Assembly (NCBI GenBank): GCA_019359505.1
Contig: JAHHHD010000018.1
Span: 53,091-117,090 of the forward strand
Length of the DNA stretch: 64,000 bases
Source of the DNA: Drouetiella hepatica Uher 2000/2452
Lineage (GTDB): Bacteria; Cyanobacteriota; Cyanobacteriia; Elainellales; Elainellaceae
Reading direction: 5' to 3'
The position numbers and the translations under genes are program-made. A model generated the notes under the pieces. The model was not told the DNA's origin. It was given only the letters and a program-made list of their open reading frames with translations, and made no database searches. Each line of letters opens with the position of its first letter. Position 1 is the first letter of the stretch. Below, in pieces: positions 40,429-46,051 of this stretch.

Positions 40429-40592
40429 TGAATAGAAAAGCGAATCTCTGAAATTGATTTTGAGAATTGCAGTACAGATTAGCGGTTAGGATAATCTGAT
40501 TTCGTAAGGCGATCGATGACTTTCGCTTAAGCAAAATCTGATTTCCCTTCAGCATCAATTGATTTTGAGTTCTGATCGTTTAGATCTGGGAA
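40429..40592. repeat. ~160-bp dispersed intergenic repeat R, copy 1
   Basis: Begins TGAATAGAAAAGCGAATCTC, contains GAAATTGATTTTGAGAA and CAAAATCTGATTTCCCTTCA, and ends ATTGATTTTGAGTTCTGATC plus GTTTAGAT. Two more copies are at 45047-45232 and 45828-45984. It accounts for most of the gene-free stretch 40283-40707; the remainder has only HIP1 octamers. Confidence 0.75.
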
Positions 40593-40707
40593 CAGCAAAC
40601 AGCATTACTCTTAAGCGATCGCTTTTGAAGAGATCTTTGCCTTTAGAGATACGATCGCCTTTGACCTTTTGCGCCTCTCTTCGGGCGCGATCTTACCCAT
40701 TGCACAA

Positions 40708-41395: not shown

Positions 41396-41549
41396 ACAGA
41401 AGTAGTTCTATAGCTACTATTAGCATACCAAAATGTTGAAAGGCTACAGGAATGCAAAAGCTGATGGAAATGCGAGGCTTGAGGGTAAGCCTTAGAAGAA
41501 GTAAACTTTGGGTAAAGGTAAATCTCTTTCCTAATCAGGCTTGAATCCA

Positions 41550-41933
41550 ATGGCAGATACATCTGAGCTATCCATCCTGATTGATATTAGTCAGGTTGAC
41601 CTGGATCTTGAGCCGGAAGAGTTGGAGGCTTTGACCAGCAGCCTCAAGGATGAGATCTCGGAGATTGTAGAGGATGCTGAATTGGTGCGGGAGTCTGAGA
41701 TTCCGGAGGGAGGTAAGCCCGCGCTGGCAGGATTTGTGCTGGGGTTCTTGAAAGCCATCGTCAACGTCAAGAATATTCAGGCGCTCATGGGCGTTTTGCA
41801 GGAGCGGTTTAGCGGCAAGCCGATCGAGCTGACGGTGGAAAAGAATGGCAGCAAGTATAGCCTCAAAGTCGGCAGACCTGAAGATTTGGATAAGACGATC
41901 GCCGCCATTCAGAAACTGGCTGAGATAGAGTAA
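41550..41933 (+). CDS. EACC1-like small protein (effector-associated constant component)
   Basis: 127 residues. Layout matches the EACC1 family: an N-terminal beta strand (LSILIDISQVDLDLEPEE) with an LxxELT-type helix (EALTSSLKDEISEIVEDAEL); a linker ending GGKPA; a hydrophobic helix LAGFVLGFLKAIVNVKN; then a strand pair PIELTVEKNGSKYSLKVG and terminal helix DLDKTIAAIQKLAEIE. EACC1 proteins accompany caspase or trypsin effectors in NTP-dependent conflict systems of multicellular bacteria. The start ATG follows a weak ribosome-binding site. It is 15 bp upstream of the caspase gene, so co-transcribed. Function beyond this context is unknown. Confidence 0.72.
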   Translation: MADTSELSILIDISQVDLDLEPEELEALTSSLKDEISEIVEDAELVRESEIPEGGKPALAGFVLGFLKAIVNVKNIQALMGVLQERFSGKPIELTVEKNGSKYSLKVGRPEDLDKTIAAIQKLAEIE

Positions 41934-41948
41934 GCCTGAAATAAATCT

Positions 41949-42653
41949 ATGGCAAAAGTAGCGCTCTTGGTCGGGGTTAGTGATTACCAAATAGCAGGGA
42001 GCGATCAAGGCTTTACCAATCTACCCAGCGCCAAGCTGGATGTGGAAGGGATGAGGAGAATTCTGGAAAACCCTGAGCTAGGGGCTTTTGACTATGTGAA
42101 AGACAGGATTAATCCTACGCGTCAGGAAATGAGTGAAGCGATCGAAGAATTCTTGATGGGGGACGATCGCCAAAAAGATGATCTGGTTTTGCTGTACTTT
42201 TCGGGTCATGGCGCAAAGGATAAGAATCGCAAGCTACATTTTGCCGCCAAGGGCACCCGGAAAAATGCTAAAGACGATCTGTTTACTTCAACGGCTCTCT
42301 CAGCTCAGACTGTGCGCGATTGGTTAGCCGAGTGCAAAGCCACGAAAAAGATCATGATTTTGGATTGCTGCTTTAGTGGGGCGATCGATCCCAATGCCAA
42401 AGGAGATAATTCGTTAGAGGTGCTGGAAACGTCGCTATCCGCCGTCAAAGGCAGCATTATTCTGACTTCCTCTAGTGCCACCGAGATTTCCTATGGCGAC
42501 CCAACTCAGATGTCTTTTTACACGCGCTACTTTGTTCAAGGCGTTGAGAGCGGAGAAGCCGATCGAGATTTCAATGGATACCTTTCGATTAAAGAATTGC
42601 ATAGCTATGTGAGGGCAAAACTTCTAGCCGAAAGAAAAGAGATGACTCCTTAG
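41949..42653 (+). CDS. Caspase-like (metacaspase) protease, separated from its C-terminal tail by TAG
   Basis: 234 residues ending in a TAG. Peptidase C14 p20-type fold: KVALLVGVSDY (strand 1), LVLLYFSGHGAKD with catalytic His87, and IMILDCCFSGAID with catalytic Cys at 141. LFTSTALSAQTVRDWLAECK and TSSSATEISYGD complete the fold. The frame continues uninterrupted after the single TAG (42651-42653) into the FGE-like tail, which would give a 631-residue protein. Related cyanobacterial proteins are commonly caspase-FGE fusions, so a Gln-to-stop change (CAG to TAG) is the simplest explanation. Probably a suicide effector or signalling protease (inference). Confidence 0.9.
   Translation: MAKVALLVGVSDYQIAGSDQGFTNLPSAKLDVEGMRRILENPELGAFDYVKDRINPTRQEMSEAIEEFLMGDDRQKDDLVLLYFSGHGAKDKNRKLHFAAKGTRKNAKDDLFTSTALSAQTVRDWLAECKATKKIMILDCCFSGAIDPNAKGDNSLEVLETSLSAVKGSIILTSSSATEISYGDPTQMSFYTRYFVQGVESGEADRDFNGYLSIKELHSYVRAKLLAERKEMTP
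42651..42653 (+). other. In-frame amber codon between caspase and FGE/lectin-like tail
   Basis: TAG at the junction EMTP-stop-NIFIKEDGFFDAPLIK. The sixteen codons after the stop are in the caspase frame and remain coding in style; the only start candidate, GTG at 42702, lacks a ribosome-binding site. A mutation of one glutamine codon, a sequencing error, or readthrough are the alternatives. Confidence 0.8.
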
Positions 42654-42701: not shown

Positions 42702-43844
42702 GTGCCGATCGCCGATCCAGCCCAGGCGTATCGCAAGAAGGTGAGATCTTATATAGATCGGGGGTTTGCCAAGACTGGAGAATTCGATCGCTACATCAAA
42801 GCAGCACTAGAACAAGATCGAATTCAGATTAATCAGTTAAGCAAAAGCGAACTTTCGACGAATGTTGCTGAAACAACGGTAAACAGCCTTTTACAGCCTA
42901 TTAGACAACGCCTAGAGAATCTCAAAAGCTACAGACAGGCATTTCGTGAACACCTAGAAGAAGAAACTTTAGAGGAGAGCCGCGACAGTTTGAAGGTCTG
43001 GCGAGAAATTGTCTTAAAGTTGACTGATGCAGATGTGGAGGATATTGAACGAGAGGGGCAACAGCAGTCAGGAACCAGAAAGACAAGGGAGAACAAACTT
43101 CATAGAGAAAACTTGGGTAATGATGTCTCTCTAGATTTGGTTGCTATCCCTGCTGGCTCTTTCCAAATGGGTTCAACTGAATATGGTGATGAACAGCCTG
43201 TGCATCAAGTGACGATCGCTCCCTTCTTCTTGGGTAAATATCCAGTCACTCAAGCACAGTGGGAAGCTGTTGCGGCTTTCCCAAAAGTCAATCTTGATCT
43301 AAATCCTGAGCCTTCTTATTTTGAGGGAAACGATCGCCCGGTTGAAACTGTCTCTTGGTGGGATGTGATGGAGTTTTGCGATCGCCTCACTCGTAAGACC
43401 AAGCACACCTACCGTCTGCCCAGCGAAGCCGAATGGGAATATGCTTGCCGTGCCGGAACTACGACTCCGTTTCACTTTGGTGAGACGATCGCCACTGATT
43501 TAGCAAACTACGACGGCAACTTTACCTATGGCTCAGGTGTCAAAGGTGAGTATCGGAAACAAACAACACCAGTGGGTAGTTTTAATGTGGCAAATGTCTT
43601 CGGGCTTTATGATATGCACGGCAATGTTCGGGAATGGTGCGCCGATCATTGGCATAAAAATTATGAAGGAGCGCCGATCGATGGAAGTGCTTGGCTAACG
43701 GATAATAAAGATGCTAAAAGGCTGATGCGCGGCGGTTCGTGGGGCGACAATCCTGTGGTCTGTCGGTCTGCTTTTCGCTACTACTACGATCCTGGCGTTC
43801 GGGACCTCGATCTCGGTTTTCGGGTGGTTTGCGTTCTAGCGTGA
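42702..43844 (+). CDS. FGE-sulfatase/C-type-lectin-like tail, DGR variable protein
   Basis: 380 codons, in frame with the caspase. About 1-130 is a charged helical linker. From about 145 to the end runs an FGE-sulfatase (SUMF1-type) domain: LVAIPAGSFQMGSTEYGDEQ, FFLGKYPVTQAQWEAVAA, RPVETVSWWDVMEFCDRLTR, TYRLPSEAEWEYACRAGTTT, DMHGNVREWCADHW and RLMRGGSW...GFRVVC. In DGR-target proteins this fold is a C-type-lectin-like ligand-binding domain rather than an enzyme. The last 41 codons fall in the variable repeat: nine of ten template asparagine codons are changed here. Probably the sensor part of a caspase effector (inference). Confidence 0.88.
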   Translation: MPIADPAQAYRKKVRSYIDRGFAKTGEFDRYIKAALEQDRIQINQLSKSELSTNVAETTVNSLLQPIRQRLENLKSYRQAFREHLEEETLEESRDSLKVWREIVLKLTDADVEDIEREGQQQSGTRKTRENKLHRENLGNDVSLDLVAIPAGSFQMGSTEYGDEQPVHQVTIAPFFLGKYPVTQAQWEAVAAFPKVNLDLNPEPSYFEGNDRPVETVSWWDVMEFCDRLTRKTKHTYRLPSEAEWEYACRAGTTTPFHFGETIATDLANYDGNFTYGSGVKGEYRKQTTPVGSFNVANVFGLYDMHGNVREWCADHWHKNYEGAPIDGSAWLTDNKDAKRLMRGGSWGDNPVVCRSAFRYYYDPGVRDLDLGFRVVCVLA

Positions 43845-43845
43845 G
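43721..43845 (+). repeat. DGR variable repeat (VR)
   Basis: 125 bp covering the last 41 codons of the FGE-like gene and its stop. It aligns without gaps to 44287-44411 (offset 566). There are 13 differences, all at template A: AAC to GGC, AAC to GAC, AAC to GTC, two AAC to TAC, AAT to GTT, AAC to GAC, AAC to CTC and AAT to GAT. The 3'-most 32 bases (from TCTCGGTTTTCGGG) are identical in both copies, as expected for the initiation-of-homing end. Confidence 0.96.
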
Positions 43846-43906
43846 GACTTCTTTGCCCTTTACCCTTTTCCTCTTTTGCCCTCTACACTATTTCCTTTAC
43901 TCTCTT

Positions 43907-43922
43907 TCGCGCGTTAGCGCGA
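43907..43922. repeat. Short hairpin downstream of VR
   Basis: TCGCGC / GCGCGA with a GTTA loop, 62 bp after the VR. In characterised DGRs a hairpin or cruciform lies a few bases beyond the VR and aids target recognition. The spacing here is much larger, so this is a weak candidate. Confidence 0.3.
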
Positions 43923-44040
43923 TCAAATTTTTTTCAGAATGAGCATGGATTTATCACTGCAAAGGATGCGAAGAAGCAAGATTAGGCATTGCTGAATCGA
44001 AGTGTAGGAGGATATCTGAAAAGTATAAATCGTTACCCGA

Positions 44041-44166
44041 ACCGCCCCCTAAATCCCCCAATTCTGGGGGACTTTGAAACAGAATCGGAGCGAACGTCCC
44101 CCAGAATTGGGGGTTGGGGGGCGATTGAGTTCGGAAGTCCCCCAGAATTGGGGGGTTGGGGGGCGA
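44041..44166. repeat. Palindromic element family E (one full and one half copy) between VR and TR
   Basis: 44041-44124 has inverted ends CGCCCCCTAAATCCCCCAAT and ATTGGGGGTTGGGGGGCG, each also locally palindromic (CCCCCAATTCTGGGGG). A half copy (GTCCCCCAGAATTGGGGGG to GGGGGGCG) follows at 44140-44166. Matches 1-66 of the window. It fills most of the VR-TR gap (43846-44286); the rest of that gap has no gene. Confidence 0.8.
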
Positions 44167-44286
44167 ATGCAGAACATTTGATACGTTTCCAGCATCCTCT
44201 GGGACAAGCAGGAGAAGTTTTATGGTATAACCTGAGTGTTCAGATGCTTGTTTGTACAGGCAGGCTGAACTGGGGCAGATCCCGTA

Positions 44287-44411
44287 GCTGATGCGCGGCG
44301 GTTCGTGGAACAACAATCCTGTGAACTGTCGGTCTGCTTTTCGCAACTACAACGATCCTGGCAATCGGAACAACAATCTCGGTTTTCGGGTGGTTTGCGT
44401 TCTAGCGTGAG
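44287..44411 (+). repeat. DGR template repeat (TR)
   Basis: 125 bp non-coding copy of the VR. If read in the VR frame it would give [20 protein letters not shown] and [18 protein letters not shown]: a row of ten AAY (Asn) codons, the classical template design in which A-mutagenesis reaches many residues but no stop codon. It holds 25 adenines; 13 differ in the VR. No reverse transcriptase gene is found in the flanking DNA. Confidence 0.96.
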
Positions 44412-44515
44412 TACTCCTACCTTGTTAGAACTGGTCGAAGGGATTCGATTGGGCGTACACTCAGGAGTCCAGTCTGTTCCTGTGATGGGGGCAACCCTTT
44501 CCGAAAATAAAACAG

Positions 44516-44604
44516 AACCGGATGGTTTGGTAGGTTCGCCGAAGACCCGTCCGGTTCATCCCCTTTAACAAGACTTCCGAGGTTTTCAAAACCTCGGAAG
44601 TCTT
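44516..44604 (+). promoter_or_regulatory. Two hairpins downstream of TR (possible TR-RNA structure or terminator)
   Basis: First AACCGGA / TCCGGTT (44516-44522 with 44550-44556). Second a perfect 17-bp stem AAGACTTCCGAGGTTTT / AAAACCTCGGAAGTCTT with a one-base loop (44570-44604). In studied DGRs the RNA 3' of the TR binds the reverse transcriptase complex; these hairpins could be its remnant or simply a terminator. Confidence 0.45.
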
Positions 44605-44643
44605 GAGGTAAGCTAGGTCAGCAACCCTAGAAAAAGTTGTCCT

Positions 44644-45046: not shown

Positions 45047-45232
45047 TGAATAGAAGAGCGACTCTCTGAAATTGATTTTGAGAACTGCAATATTAATTTG
45101 CTGTCACGATTGCTTAATTCCGTAAGGCGATCGCCCTCTTCCCCCTAAGCAAAATCTGATTTCCCTTCAGCACAAATTGAGTTTGAGTTAGGCTTTGTTA
45201 ATTTTGAGTTCTGATCTTTTAGATTAGAGAAC
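45047..45232. repeat. Dispersed intergenic repeat R, copy 2
   Basis: Begins TGAATAGAAGAGCGACTCTC, shares TGAAATTGATTTTGAGAA, CTAAGCAAAATCTGATTTCC and AATTTTGAGTTCTGATCTTT with copy 1 but has an insertion of about 20 bp near the end. It directly follows the orphan antitoxin. Confidence 0.75.
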
Positions 45233-45310: not shown

Positions 45311-45673
45311 ATGGTGGAGCAAAAATACATTGACTACTGGCGCGATCGTCAGGCTCAGCAAGCGGTTGAATCTGAAGCGCTGGCAAAACAGGCGTGGGCA
45401 GATCTTCAGCAAATTGCTCAATTGCTCAGGTTTGAGTTTGGTGCAACCCAGATCATTGTCTTTGGTTCTTTGGTGCAAGGCGATCGGTTTGATGCTGAAT
45501 CAGATATTGATCTGGCGGTTAAAGGCATTTCACCCGAAGATTTCTTTGCGGCAATGGCAGCAGCCAACCGGATAAGCCATCAATGGGTTGATCTTAAGCC
45601 TATAGAATCTCTAGATTCGCACTTTTTGCAAAAAGTCCTTAAAACCGGGAAAAGCATCGATGCGGAAGATTAG
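45311..45673 (+). CDS. MNT-type nucleotidyltransferase (MntA-like antitoxin)
   Basis: 120 residues. The minimal nucleotidyltransferase fold: QIIVFGSLVQGDRFDAESDIDLAVKG, with the GSx10-13(S)DxD active-site motif (metal-binding Asp pair in SDIDLAV). The N-terminal helix (YWRDRQAQQAVESEALAKQA) is typical of this subfamily. In MntA/HepT modules it neutralises the HEPN RNase HepT by AMPylation. The partner gene overlaps by 14 bp but is truncated (45660-45821). Confidence 0.88.
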   Translation: MVEQKYIDYWRDRQAQQAVESEALAKQAWADLQQIAQLLRFEFGATQIIVFGSLVQGDRFDAESDIDLAVKGISPEDFFAAMAAANRISHQWVDLKPIESLDSHFLQKVLKTGKSIDAED

Positions 45674-45827: not shown

Positions 45828-45984
45828 AACAAAGCGATTTTCTAAACTAAATTGTGAGAACCCCAACAGAGATTAGCGATCGCGATCGCTTGATTTCGTG
45901 AGGCGATCGCTTGGTTTCGCTCAAGCAAAATCTAATTATCCTTCAGCATGAATTGATTTTGAGTTCTGATCTTTTGAGTTAAGG
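45828..45984. repeat. Dispersed intergenic repeat R, copy 3
   Basis: Most diverged copy. Shares GCTCAAGCAAAATCTAATTA, TCCTTCAGCATGAATTGATT and TTGAGTTCTGATCTTTTGAG with the others; its 5' part carries repeated HIP1 octamers. It begins immediately after the truncated HepT gene. Together with the family D element it occupies most of the gene-free stretch 45822-46322. Confidence 0.7.
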
Positions 45985-46051
45985 AAAGGCAAATTTAGAT
46001 CAGCTGTAAGAAAGTTTAGAGAGCTTCTAGCTGTGAGGGTTGACATCTGTT

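Follow-up and report, generated by a model that had tools for sequence, protein, structure and literature searches.

A cyanobacterial diversity-generating retroelement cassette that probably depends on a reverse transcriptase supplied in trans

How can a locus carry the adenine-only substitutions of mutagenic retrohoming when the genome around it yields no match to a suitable reverse transcriptase (RT)? This question is raised by a 64,000-nt stretch of the genome of Drouetiella hepatica Uher 2000/2452 (contig JAHHHD010000018.1), here called the window, in which the end of a gene is repeated in non-coding DNA further downstream. All coordinates are positions in the window; genomes are labelled G### (the window's own genome is G000) and loci L###. 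In the diversity-generating retroelement (DGR) of Bordetella phage BPP-1 a variable repeat (VR), a template repeat (TR) and a target flank of the IMH (initiation of mutagenic homing) type are found together with RT and Avd genes in cis. The window resembles that DGR in its VR and TR, in a predicted structured RNA trailing the TR and in a candidate IMH-like flank, but unlike it contains no match to RT or Avd. Judged from sequence comparison, the locus is probably an RT-less, non-autonomous DGR cassette whose adenine-only pattern would have been made by an RT and Avd supplied in trans. The cassette thus likely relies on an RT from elsewhere.

The VR (43721-43845) and the TR (44287-44411) align without gaps over 125 bp. 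Each of their 13 mismatches lies at an adenine of the TR, so that 13 of 25 A positions are changed in contrast to none of 36 G, 34 T and 30 C (0/100 other sites). The exact hypergeometric probability that all 13 mismatches land on A is 3.4e-11. A previous reading made from the letters alone (the sequence-only reading) had claimed adenine-only substitution, and this is confirmed: upon realignment no mismatch was found at a non-adenine template position, and the nearest further mismatches, at VR positions 43846 and 43850, lie outside the alignment. At the changed sites the VR carries 7 G, 5 T and 1 C. The comparison of codons also bears out that the TR contains ten AAY codons, nine of which are altered in the VR (to Gly, Asp, Val, Tyr, Tyr, Val, Asp, Leu and Asp). 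It was likewise correct to regard the first copy as the end of a C-type-lectin-like coding domain and the second as non-coding. The VR closes an open reading frame (ORF) of the FGE-sulfatase family (PF03781, E 7.4e-57) and an in-frame stop precedes the TR. Since the profile match reaches residue 376 of 380, the VR is predicted to form the C-terminus of a target with C-type-lectin fold. The description as a textbook DGR holds for the VR/TR pair and its A-only pattern, both of which are real, but not for the RT, which also belongs to the definition of a DGR; it was searched for and had no match in the genome. A complete DGR at this locus is therefore rejected, as neither RT nor Avd was matched.

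The sequence following the VR may also carry a mark of DGR targets. The motif CCCTTT occurs within 55 bases downstream of 90 of 117 VRs and of none of 117 TR entries, in which templates paired with more than one VR are counted repeatedly. The GGACT/pyrimidine flank, which is typical of VRs, is therefore a candidate IMH-like mark of targets. The spacing between VR and TR is 566 here versus 314-372 in the closest pairs, and a MITE (miniature inverted-repeat transposable element)-like repeat in the spacer may explain the difference.

The assembly of G000 is a 6.42 Mb draft of 87 contigs with a completeness of 99.78%. A search of this genome with the PF00078 (RVT_1) profile gave 0 matches, while control genomes were matched in 3 of 14 cases. 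A cyanobacterial DGR RT used as protein query also gave 0 matches in G000 at E<=1e-3. This query was taken from the locus of a relative (L072), where a bAvd gene adjoins the RT gene, and it recovers full-length DGR RTs in relatives at 54-72% identity. The search of G000 for bAvd (PF22296) had 0 matches as well; in the control, 5 of 5 RT-positive genomes and 0 of 35 RT-less or RT-fragment genomes exceeded the cut-off, with weaker matches (22-39 bits) in 12 of the 35. In the 64-kb window itself no RT or Avd was matched at the locus.

The sequence 3' of the TR is common to the TRs of complete cyanobacterial DGRs. RNAalifold predicts 42 base pairs from eight sequences, with compensatory changes in 24 of them. 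A covariance model of this RNA, termed R1, was applied with a cut-off of E<=1e-3 to 388 genomes of the class and matched in 105, 99 of them at E<=1e-13. The remaining six (G010, G194, G329, G337, G340 and G357) have weak matches only (E 3e-6 to 7.5e-4). Among 81 aligned matches (78 distinct), 94.0% of the cells pair, compared with 77.5% after shuffling and 30-50% with the partners slid, in an alignment that is fitted to the model and contains the sequences from which R1 was built. Within the 78 distinct sequences 37 of 42 pairs are altered on both sides. A second set of 61 loci gave 93.0% pairing cells and both-side changes in 33 of 42 pairs.

With 0 matches at the gathering threshold the RNA seemed new to Rfam, but this view had to be given up, since a lenient scan found RF02921 (RT-14). 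In the window this family matches over its full length (44412-44557, 38.7 bits, E 7e-4), below its gathering score of 48.1. The score is passed in G290 (48.8), one of 20 stretches tested (18 places, all R1-positive). The RNA hence joins an already described family with a narrow model, which reached the gathering score in 1/20 stretches; R1 matches 105/388 genomes. RT-14 RNA has been described beside RT genes. For the Bordetella DGR, the trailing RNA is predicted to be structured according to the available part of Paul and Eren 2022 (PMC8867640). At the other end of the window's template, conservation upstream of the TR starts at 44222-44238, and a TATAAC box, identified by eye only, is located at 44226-44231 just 5' of the predicted leader. 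Directly 3' of the template RNA a perfect 18-bp inverted repeat with a 1-base loop (44569-44605) was noted; it has no T-run. The template RNA was also found in L215 (89 bits) and L222 (86 bits), in records titled Bacterium UASB270 and a metagenome-assembled genome (MAG) named Dichelobacter nodosus. Both records are apparently from outside the cyanobacteria, and the latter name looks doubtful.

The window has close relatives of the same layout. In a tree of 140 TR+RNA rows G000 groups with G298, G019, G014 and G020 (100/100), none of these five genomes having a DGR-type RT match, and the enclosing ten-row set consists wholly of solo cassettes, i.e. cassettes with no RT in cis (84/94). In the window, G298, G014 and G019 the VR shares the base of its own TR at 57 of 57 pairwise non-A TR differences, summed over six pairs that are not independent. 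The VRs of four genomes hence track their own TR, which indicates that copying from TR to VR continued after the RT-unlinked cassettes had diverged. The TR-RNA unit of the window is 88, 85 and 84% identical to that of G298, G014 and G019, respectively, compared with 72-74% for the alignable parts of the target gene, and the VR-TR spacer does not align with those of the three genomes at E<=1e-8. The better conservation of a non-coding unit than of the gene argues for its use over much of the divergence time.

Genomes possessing an RT at another place provide evidence for action in trans. A VR/TR pair was considered clean if at least 5 and at least 25% of its A and at most 3.5% of its non-A positions were changed. 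Nine clean solo cassettes are found in RT-bearing genomes, and in all nine the solo TR is separated by 12-42 non-A sites from the RT-linked TRs that were fetched. At 92-100% of these sites the VR carries the base of the solo TR: 20/20 versus 0/20 for the RT-linked TR in G126, 17/17 versus 0 in G118, and 33, 27 and 25 versus 0 in G013. The lowest agreement, 11/12 versus 1, was obtained for G041.C13 against G041.C20. G126 consists of a single contig, on which its one DGR RT match (4.88 Mb) and the solo TR (3.48 Mb) are 1.4 Mb apart; in G118 RT and solo TR are located on separate contigs. Because the RT-linked templates differ, they cannot be the source of the solo VR, and thus the RT likely acts in trans. 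These sequences are most simply read as showing that the RNA of the solo template itself is copied by a distant RT.

The RT-less layout recurs among the RNA loci. The comparison comprised 140 places from the R1 matches listed (an earlier set of 81 matches corresponds to 79 places, as L097/L161 and L124/L166 are identical); left out were G154:C1:4422868 (109 bits) and nine places of at most 82 bits in G091, G226, G252, G285, G307, G316 and G372. RT sequence is present in the stretch at 83 of the 140 loci and none was found at 57, a negative that is weaker near contig ends because the flanks around the RNA range from 117 bases to more than 5 kb. A nearly whole RT is present at 71 loci, at 65 of them upstream of the TR RNA and at 6 downstream. 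On the 140-row tree the labels cis and solo are clustered, with 26 changes as compared to a shuffled mean of 44.3, and 0 of 500 shuffles were as low.

Clean pairs are present at 68 of the 83 RT-bearing and 18 of the 57 RT-less loci. Nine of these 18 belong to genomes with an RT elsewhere and nine to RT-less genomes, namely G000, G014, G019, G045, G112, G149, G290, G298 and G364, with VR-TR distances of 306-566. RVT_1 had no match in G000, G045 and G298 and detected other RTs in G014, G019, G112, G149 and G290; for G364 the RT test was by protein query only. Counted by genome, a DGR-type RT had no match in 37 of the 105 RNA-bearing genomes, or in 31 of 99 if the six with weak RNA matches, all counted as RT-less, are omitted. 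The RT searches covered three batches of 12 genomes (all matched, G017 in pieces), 80 genomes (31 negative) and 13 genomes (6 negative). The 31 negatives are made up of 28 genomes with no match at all and three, G014, G228 and G273, whose sole matches of 28-29% identity were scored as other RT types.

Intermediate states were also observed. An RT remnant of 47 residues is left in G075 and Avd remnants in G228; RTs are present in pieces only in, e.g., G089, G094, G179 and G207, and are broken in G320 and G349. RT genes adjoining the template RNA are broken or cut to pieces at L142, L163, L165, L166, L318 and L105, which are snapshots of RT loss. At other loci (L161, L158, L168, L137, L150, L162 and others) the lectin-like gene continues directly into the template RNA; a distinct TR is missing there, and AAY codons are few. 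This fused layout accounts for 24 of the 140 loci, 18 of them in RT-less genomes and one with RT sequence in the stretch. It looks like a collapse of the VR onto the TR by recombination, comparable to a solo long terminal repeat. In a VR-Avd-RT-TR layout such a collapse would delete RT and Avd in one step. Fused loci may serve as self-templating mRNA.

In the course that we propose for the window, the template would be transcribed as an RNA of ~330 nt, and an RT-Avd pair of another DGR elsewhere, perhaps plasmid-borne, would bind to its 3' domain. The A-mutated cDNA would then replace the VR beside the IMH-like flank. Transcription, binding and homing in trans are inferred from sequence, as is the absence of a present helper in the strain. 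DGR RTs with 63-67% identity were found on six cyanobacterial plasmids, five being nearly full length and one covering 69% of the query, and Avd is annotated adjoining the RT in 3 of 3 plasmid regions inspected. One of these plasmids, pREC1 of Acaryochloris marina, is typed as conjugative. Phages were considered as helpers and rejected, since none of the 39 matching phage records reaches 60% identity. As a more tentative extension, stand-alone TR/VR cassettes with no RT could form a lineage of satellite DGRs in cyanobacteria, which would persist and spread on their own in many hosts devoid of a helper and be switched on by an arriving helper RT-Avd, e.g. on a conjugative plasmid.

Several observations weigh against a cassette served in trans. 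Absence of the RT is concluded from drafts (87 contigs here) that may lack plasmids, and G298 is titled a MAG. An in-frame TAG (42651-42653) splits the target from its caspase part, in keeping with decay of the locus. The set of 14 rows that surrounds the window (97/90) includes one RT-bearing row, G013.C50; the notion of a purely solo group held in a 79-row tree (13 rows) and was dropped, as the 140-row tree adds G013.C50 and places G021 elsewhere. At 24 of the 33 solo loci in RT-less genomes there is no clean pair, these loci being fused, decayed or with no VR nearby. The 92-100% agreement of VRs with solo TRs follows in part from the construction of the clean class, and its informative part is the divergence of the RT-linked TRs. 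Clean pairs of RT-less genomes hardly differ in cleanness from the others (non-A mismatches 12/892 for solo pairs in RT-less genomes, 12/882 for solo pairs with an RT elsewhere and 45/5731 with full RT in cis), which speaks for the cassette, but this comparison is limited because clean pairs were chosen by thresholds. A sigma-70 promoter scan ahead of the TR found none, and among the best 120 matches listed none besides the own contig exceeded 71% identity, so that no second isolate for a VR comparison was among them.

Some of these points would suit a fossil, i.e. an autonomous DGR whose RT and Avd were once encoded at the locus and were recently deleted in this lineage, leaving the VR/TR pair as an inactive remainder. 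G000 has no RT or Avd match, the TAG splits the target, most solo loci in RT-less genomes are devoid of a clean pair (24/33), broken or partial RTs occur at other loci (G094, G179, G207, G089, G320 and G349) and the pairs in G204, G228 and G270 are decayed. However, no RT lies in cis in the window or in its three nearest pair-bearing relatives, and each of the four has a clean pair tracking its own TR, which would require several separate and very recent losses. Neither the better conservation of the RNA than of the gene nor the clean solo cassettes of RT-bearing genomes, which were not copyable from the RT-linked TRs fetched, are expected for a fossil. We therefore regard it as unlikely, though it is the rival to be taken most seriously. 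Drafts and MAGs often lose plasmids, and plasmid loss may also stand behind the missing RT in an assembly of 87 contigs. Thus, the RT could be present in the cell and absent from the assembly, on an unassembled contig or on a plasmid not kept in bin or culture, and the DGR RTs on six cyanobacterial plasmids, including the conjugative pREC1, provide a precedent. This is rendered rather improbable by the completeness of 99.78% and by nine clean-pair genomes with the same absence, one of which (G290) has 2 contigs. Even then the RT would not be linked to the window's TR, which makes this a special case of action in trans.

It might finally be argued that no retroelement is involved and that two paralogous gene ends differ by chance, by gene conversion or by A-directed editing. 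FGE-type genes are indeed repeated in these genomes, and G000:C77 bears a second caspase-lectin gene with an Asn-rich end. That gene, however, disagrees with the TR at 40 of the 100 non-A positions and hence is not a copy of it. Moreover, the A-only pattern (P 3.4e-11), the TR trailed by the same RNA as the TRs of full DGRs and the VR followed by the flank typical of VRs leave this explanation hardly any weight. Dependence of the cassette on an RT acting in trans consequently remains the reading that we consider probable.

The target gene of the window looks interrupted. Caspase and lectin-like parts form a single ORF in G298 (L160, 683 aa) and G013 (L075, 759 aa), whereas here they are split by the TAG. 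Due to this split the cassette may be dormant and the present function of the target is doubtful. The combination of a caspase with a variable lectin-like domain is suggestive, by analogy, of sensing in a conflict or cell-death response, which agrees with the proposal for DGR targets in PMC10907252. The second caspase-lectin gene of the genome (L081, 2717-4711 of G000:C77) is one ORF of 664 aa; its Asn-rich end resembles an undiversified template and no template RNA follows it. It was considered as a remote target of the TR and rejected owing to the non-A differences given above.

The coordinates of the features are compiled in the table. The small ORF 5' of the caspase gene had no match in the Pfam scan, and its counterparts in G013 and G298 reach only 16.5 and 13.7 bits for EACC1, under the cut-off of 23.6. 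The scan for terminator-like sites found 2 versus 1.3 expected. A 163-nt repeat is present in three copies around the cassette, at 40437-40599, 45055-45217 and 45831-45993, the latter two with 73 and 75% identity to the first. A small nucleotidyltransferase (Polbeta, PF18765) is encoded at 45311-45673, to which PADLOC PDC-S09 models match as well.

Table. Features of the cassette and its surroundings in the window.
Feature	Position	Strand	Basis
Small ORF 5' of the caspase gene; ORFs similarly placed in G013 and G298; EACC1-like at best	41541..41933	+	Pfam scan
Caspase (Peptidase_C14) ORF, 234 aa, in the frame of the lectin ORF, closed by TAG 42651-42653	41949..42653	+	PF00656, E 4e-24
FGE-sulfatase (SUMF1) / C-type-lectin-like ORF, 380 aa, ending in the VR	42702..43844	+	PF03781, E 7.4e-57
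VR, final 40 codons and stop of the target gene	43721..43845	+	13/25 A and 0/100 other sites changed against 44287-44411
GGACT and pyrimidine tract (CCCTTT...) flanking the VR, candidate IMH-like target mark	43845..43895	+	Flank comparison across 117 VRs
GC-rich hairpin and T-run 3' of the target gene; resembles a terminator, or corresponds to the hairpin that follows the IMH in other DGRs	43907..43922	+	Terminator scan; role inferred
MITE-like inverted repeat, spacer between VR and TR	44046..44163	.	Repeat scan; similar stretch in L138
Predicted 5' leader, template RNA; TTCAG (44239-44243) pairs with CTGAA (44265-44269) in a small hairpin	44235..44286	+	Kept in four solo cassettes
TR, ten AAY codons in the frame of the VR, in-frame stop ahead	44287..44411	+	Alignment, VR/TR comparison
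Conserved predicted structured RNA with three domains, modelled with five helices; distantly related to Rfam RT-14 (RF02921)	44408..44563	+	Model R1, 149 bits

Related systems have been described, and the sources are cited here from the parts available. The cyanobacterial survey of Vallota-Eastman et al. 2020 (PMC7517822) required an RT gene for each DGR. It also mentions that Nostoc PCC 7120, whose genome contains two DGRs, has a paralogue (all3226) that retains remnant TR-VR homology and has no RT in its vicinity. Like the lectin-target DGRs of that survey, which have caspase, TIR or CHAT partner domains, the window has an A-only VR ending a lectin-like domain. In contrast to those DGRs, an RT was not matched anywhere in its draft genome, and RT-less cassettes are found repeatedly in clustered lineages that have a template RNA of their own. 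Degenerate RT-less DGR loci were reported for Thiohalocapsa PB-PSB1 by Dore et al. 2024 (PMC10907252), who inferred diversification in trans. These loci share with the window the missing RT, the inferred action in trans and MITE-like repeats. In Thiohalocapsa, however, RTs are encoded elsewhere in the same genome and DGR 4 and 5 have VRs corresponding to the TR of DGR 2, whereas the solo VRs described here agree with the solo TR of their own cassette and no RT was matched in the genome of the window. A-specific mutation in Nostoc punctiforme is reported in an mBio paper of 2025 (PMC12691664). Among the titles listed from the openly licensed literature none on point for RT-less DGRs was found beyond Dore et al. 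2024, and the available parts of PMC6642488 and PMC8144416 yielded nothing on RT-less loci. A recurrent stand-alone cassette lineage with its own template RNA in genomes with no DGR RT match was not found described in that literature either, which does not by itself show its absence in print.

Surveys that start from the RT, such as PMC7517822, are blind to cassettes of this kind, and 37 of the 105 genomes with the template RNA have no DGR-type RT match. The R1 model is a way of finding DGRs that is independent of the RT. If any RNA bearing the 3' domain can be used by an RT in trans, the potential for diversification and its helper would be inherited and transferred separately. Action in trans, if true, would change the counting of DGRs and the view of how they spread, and it offers a simple genetic test.

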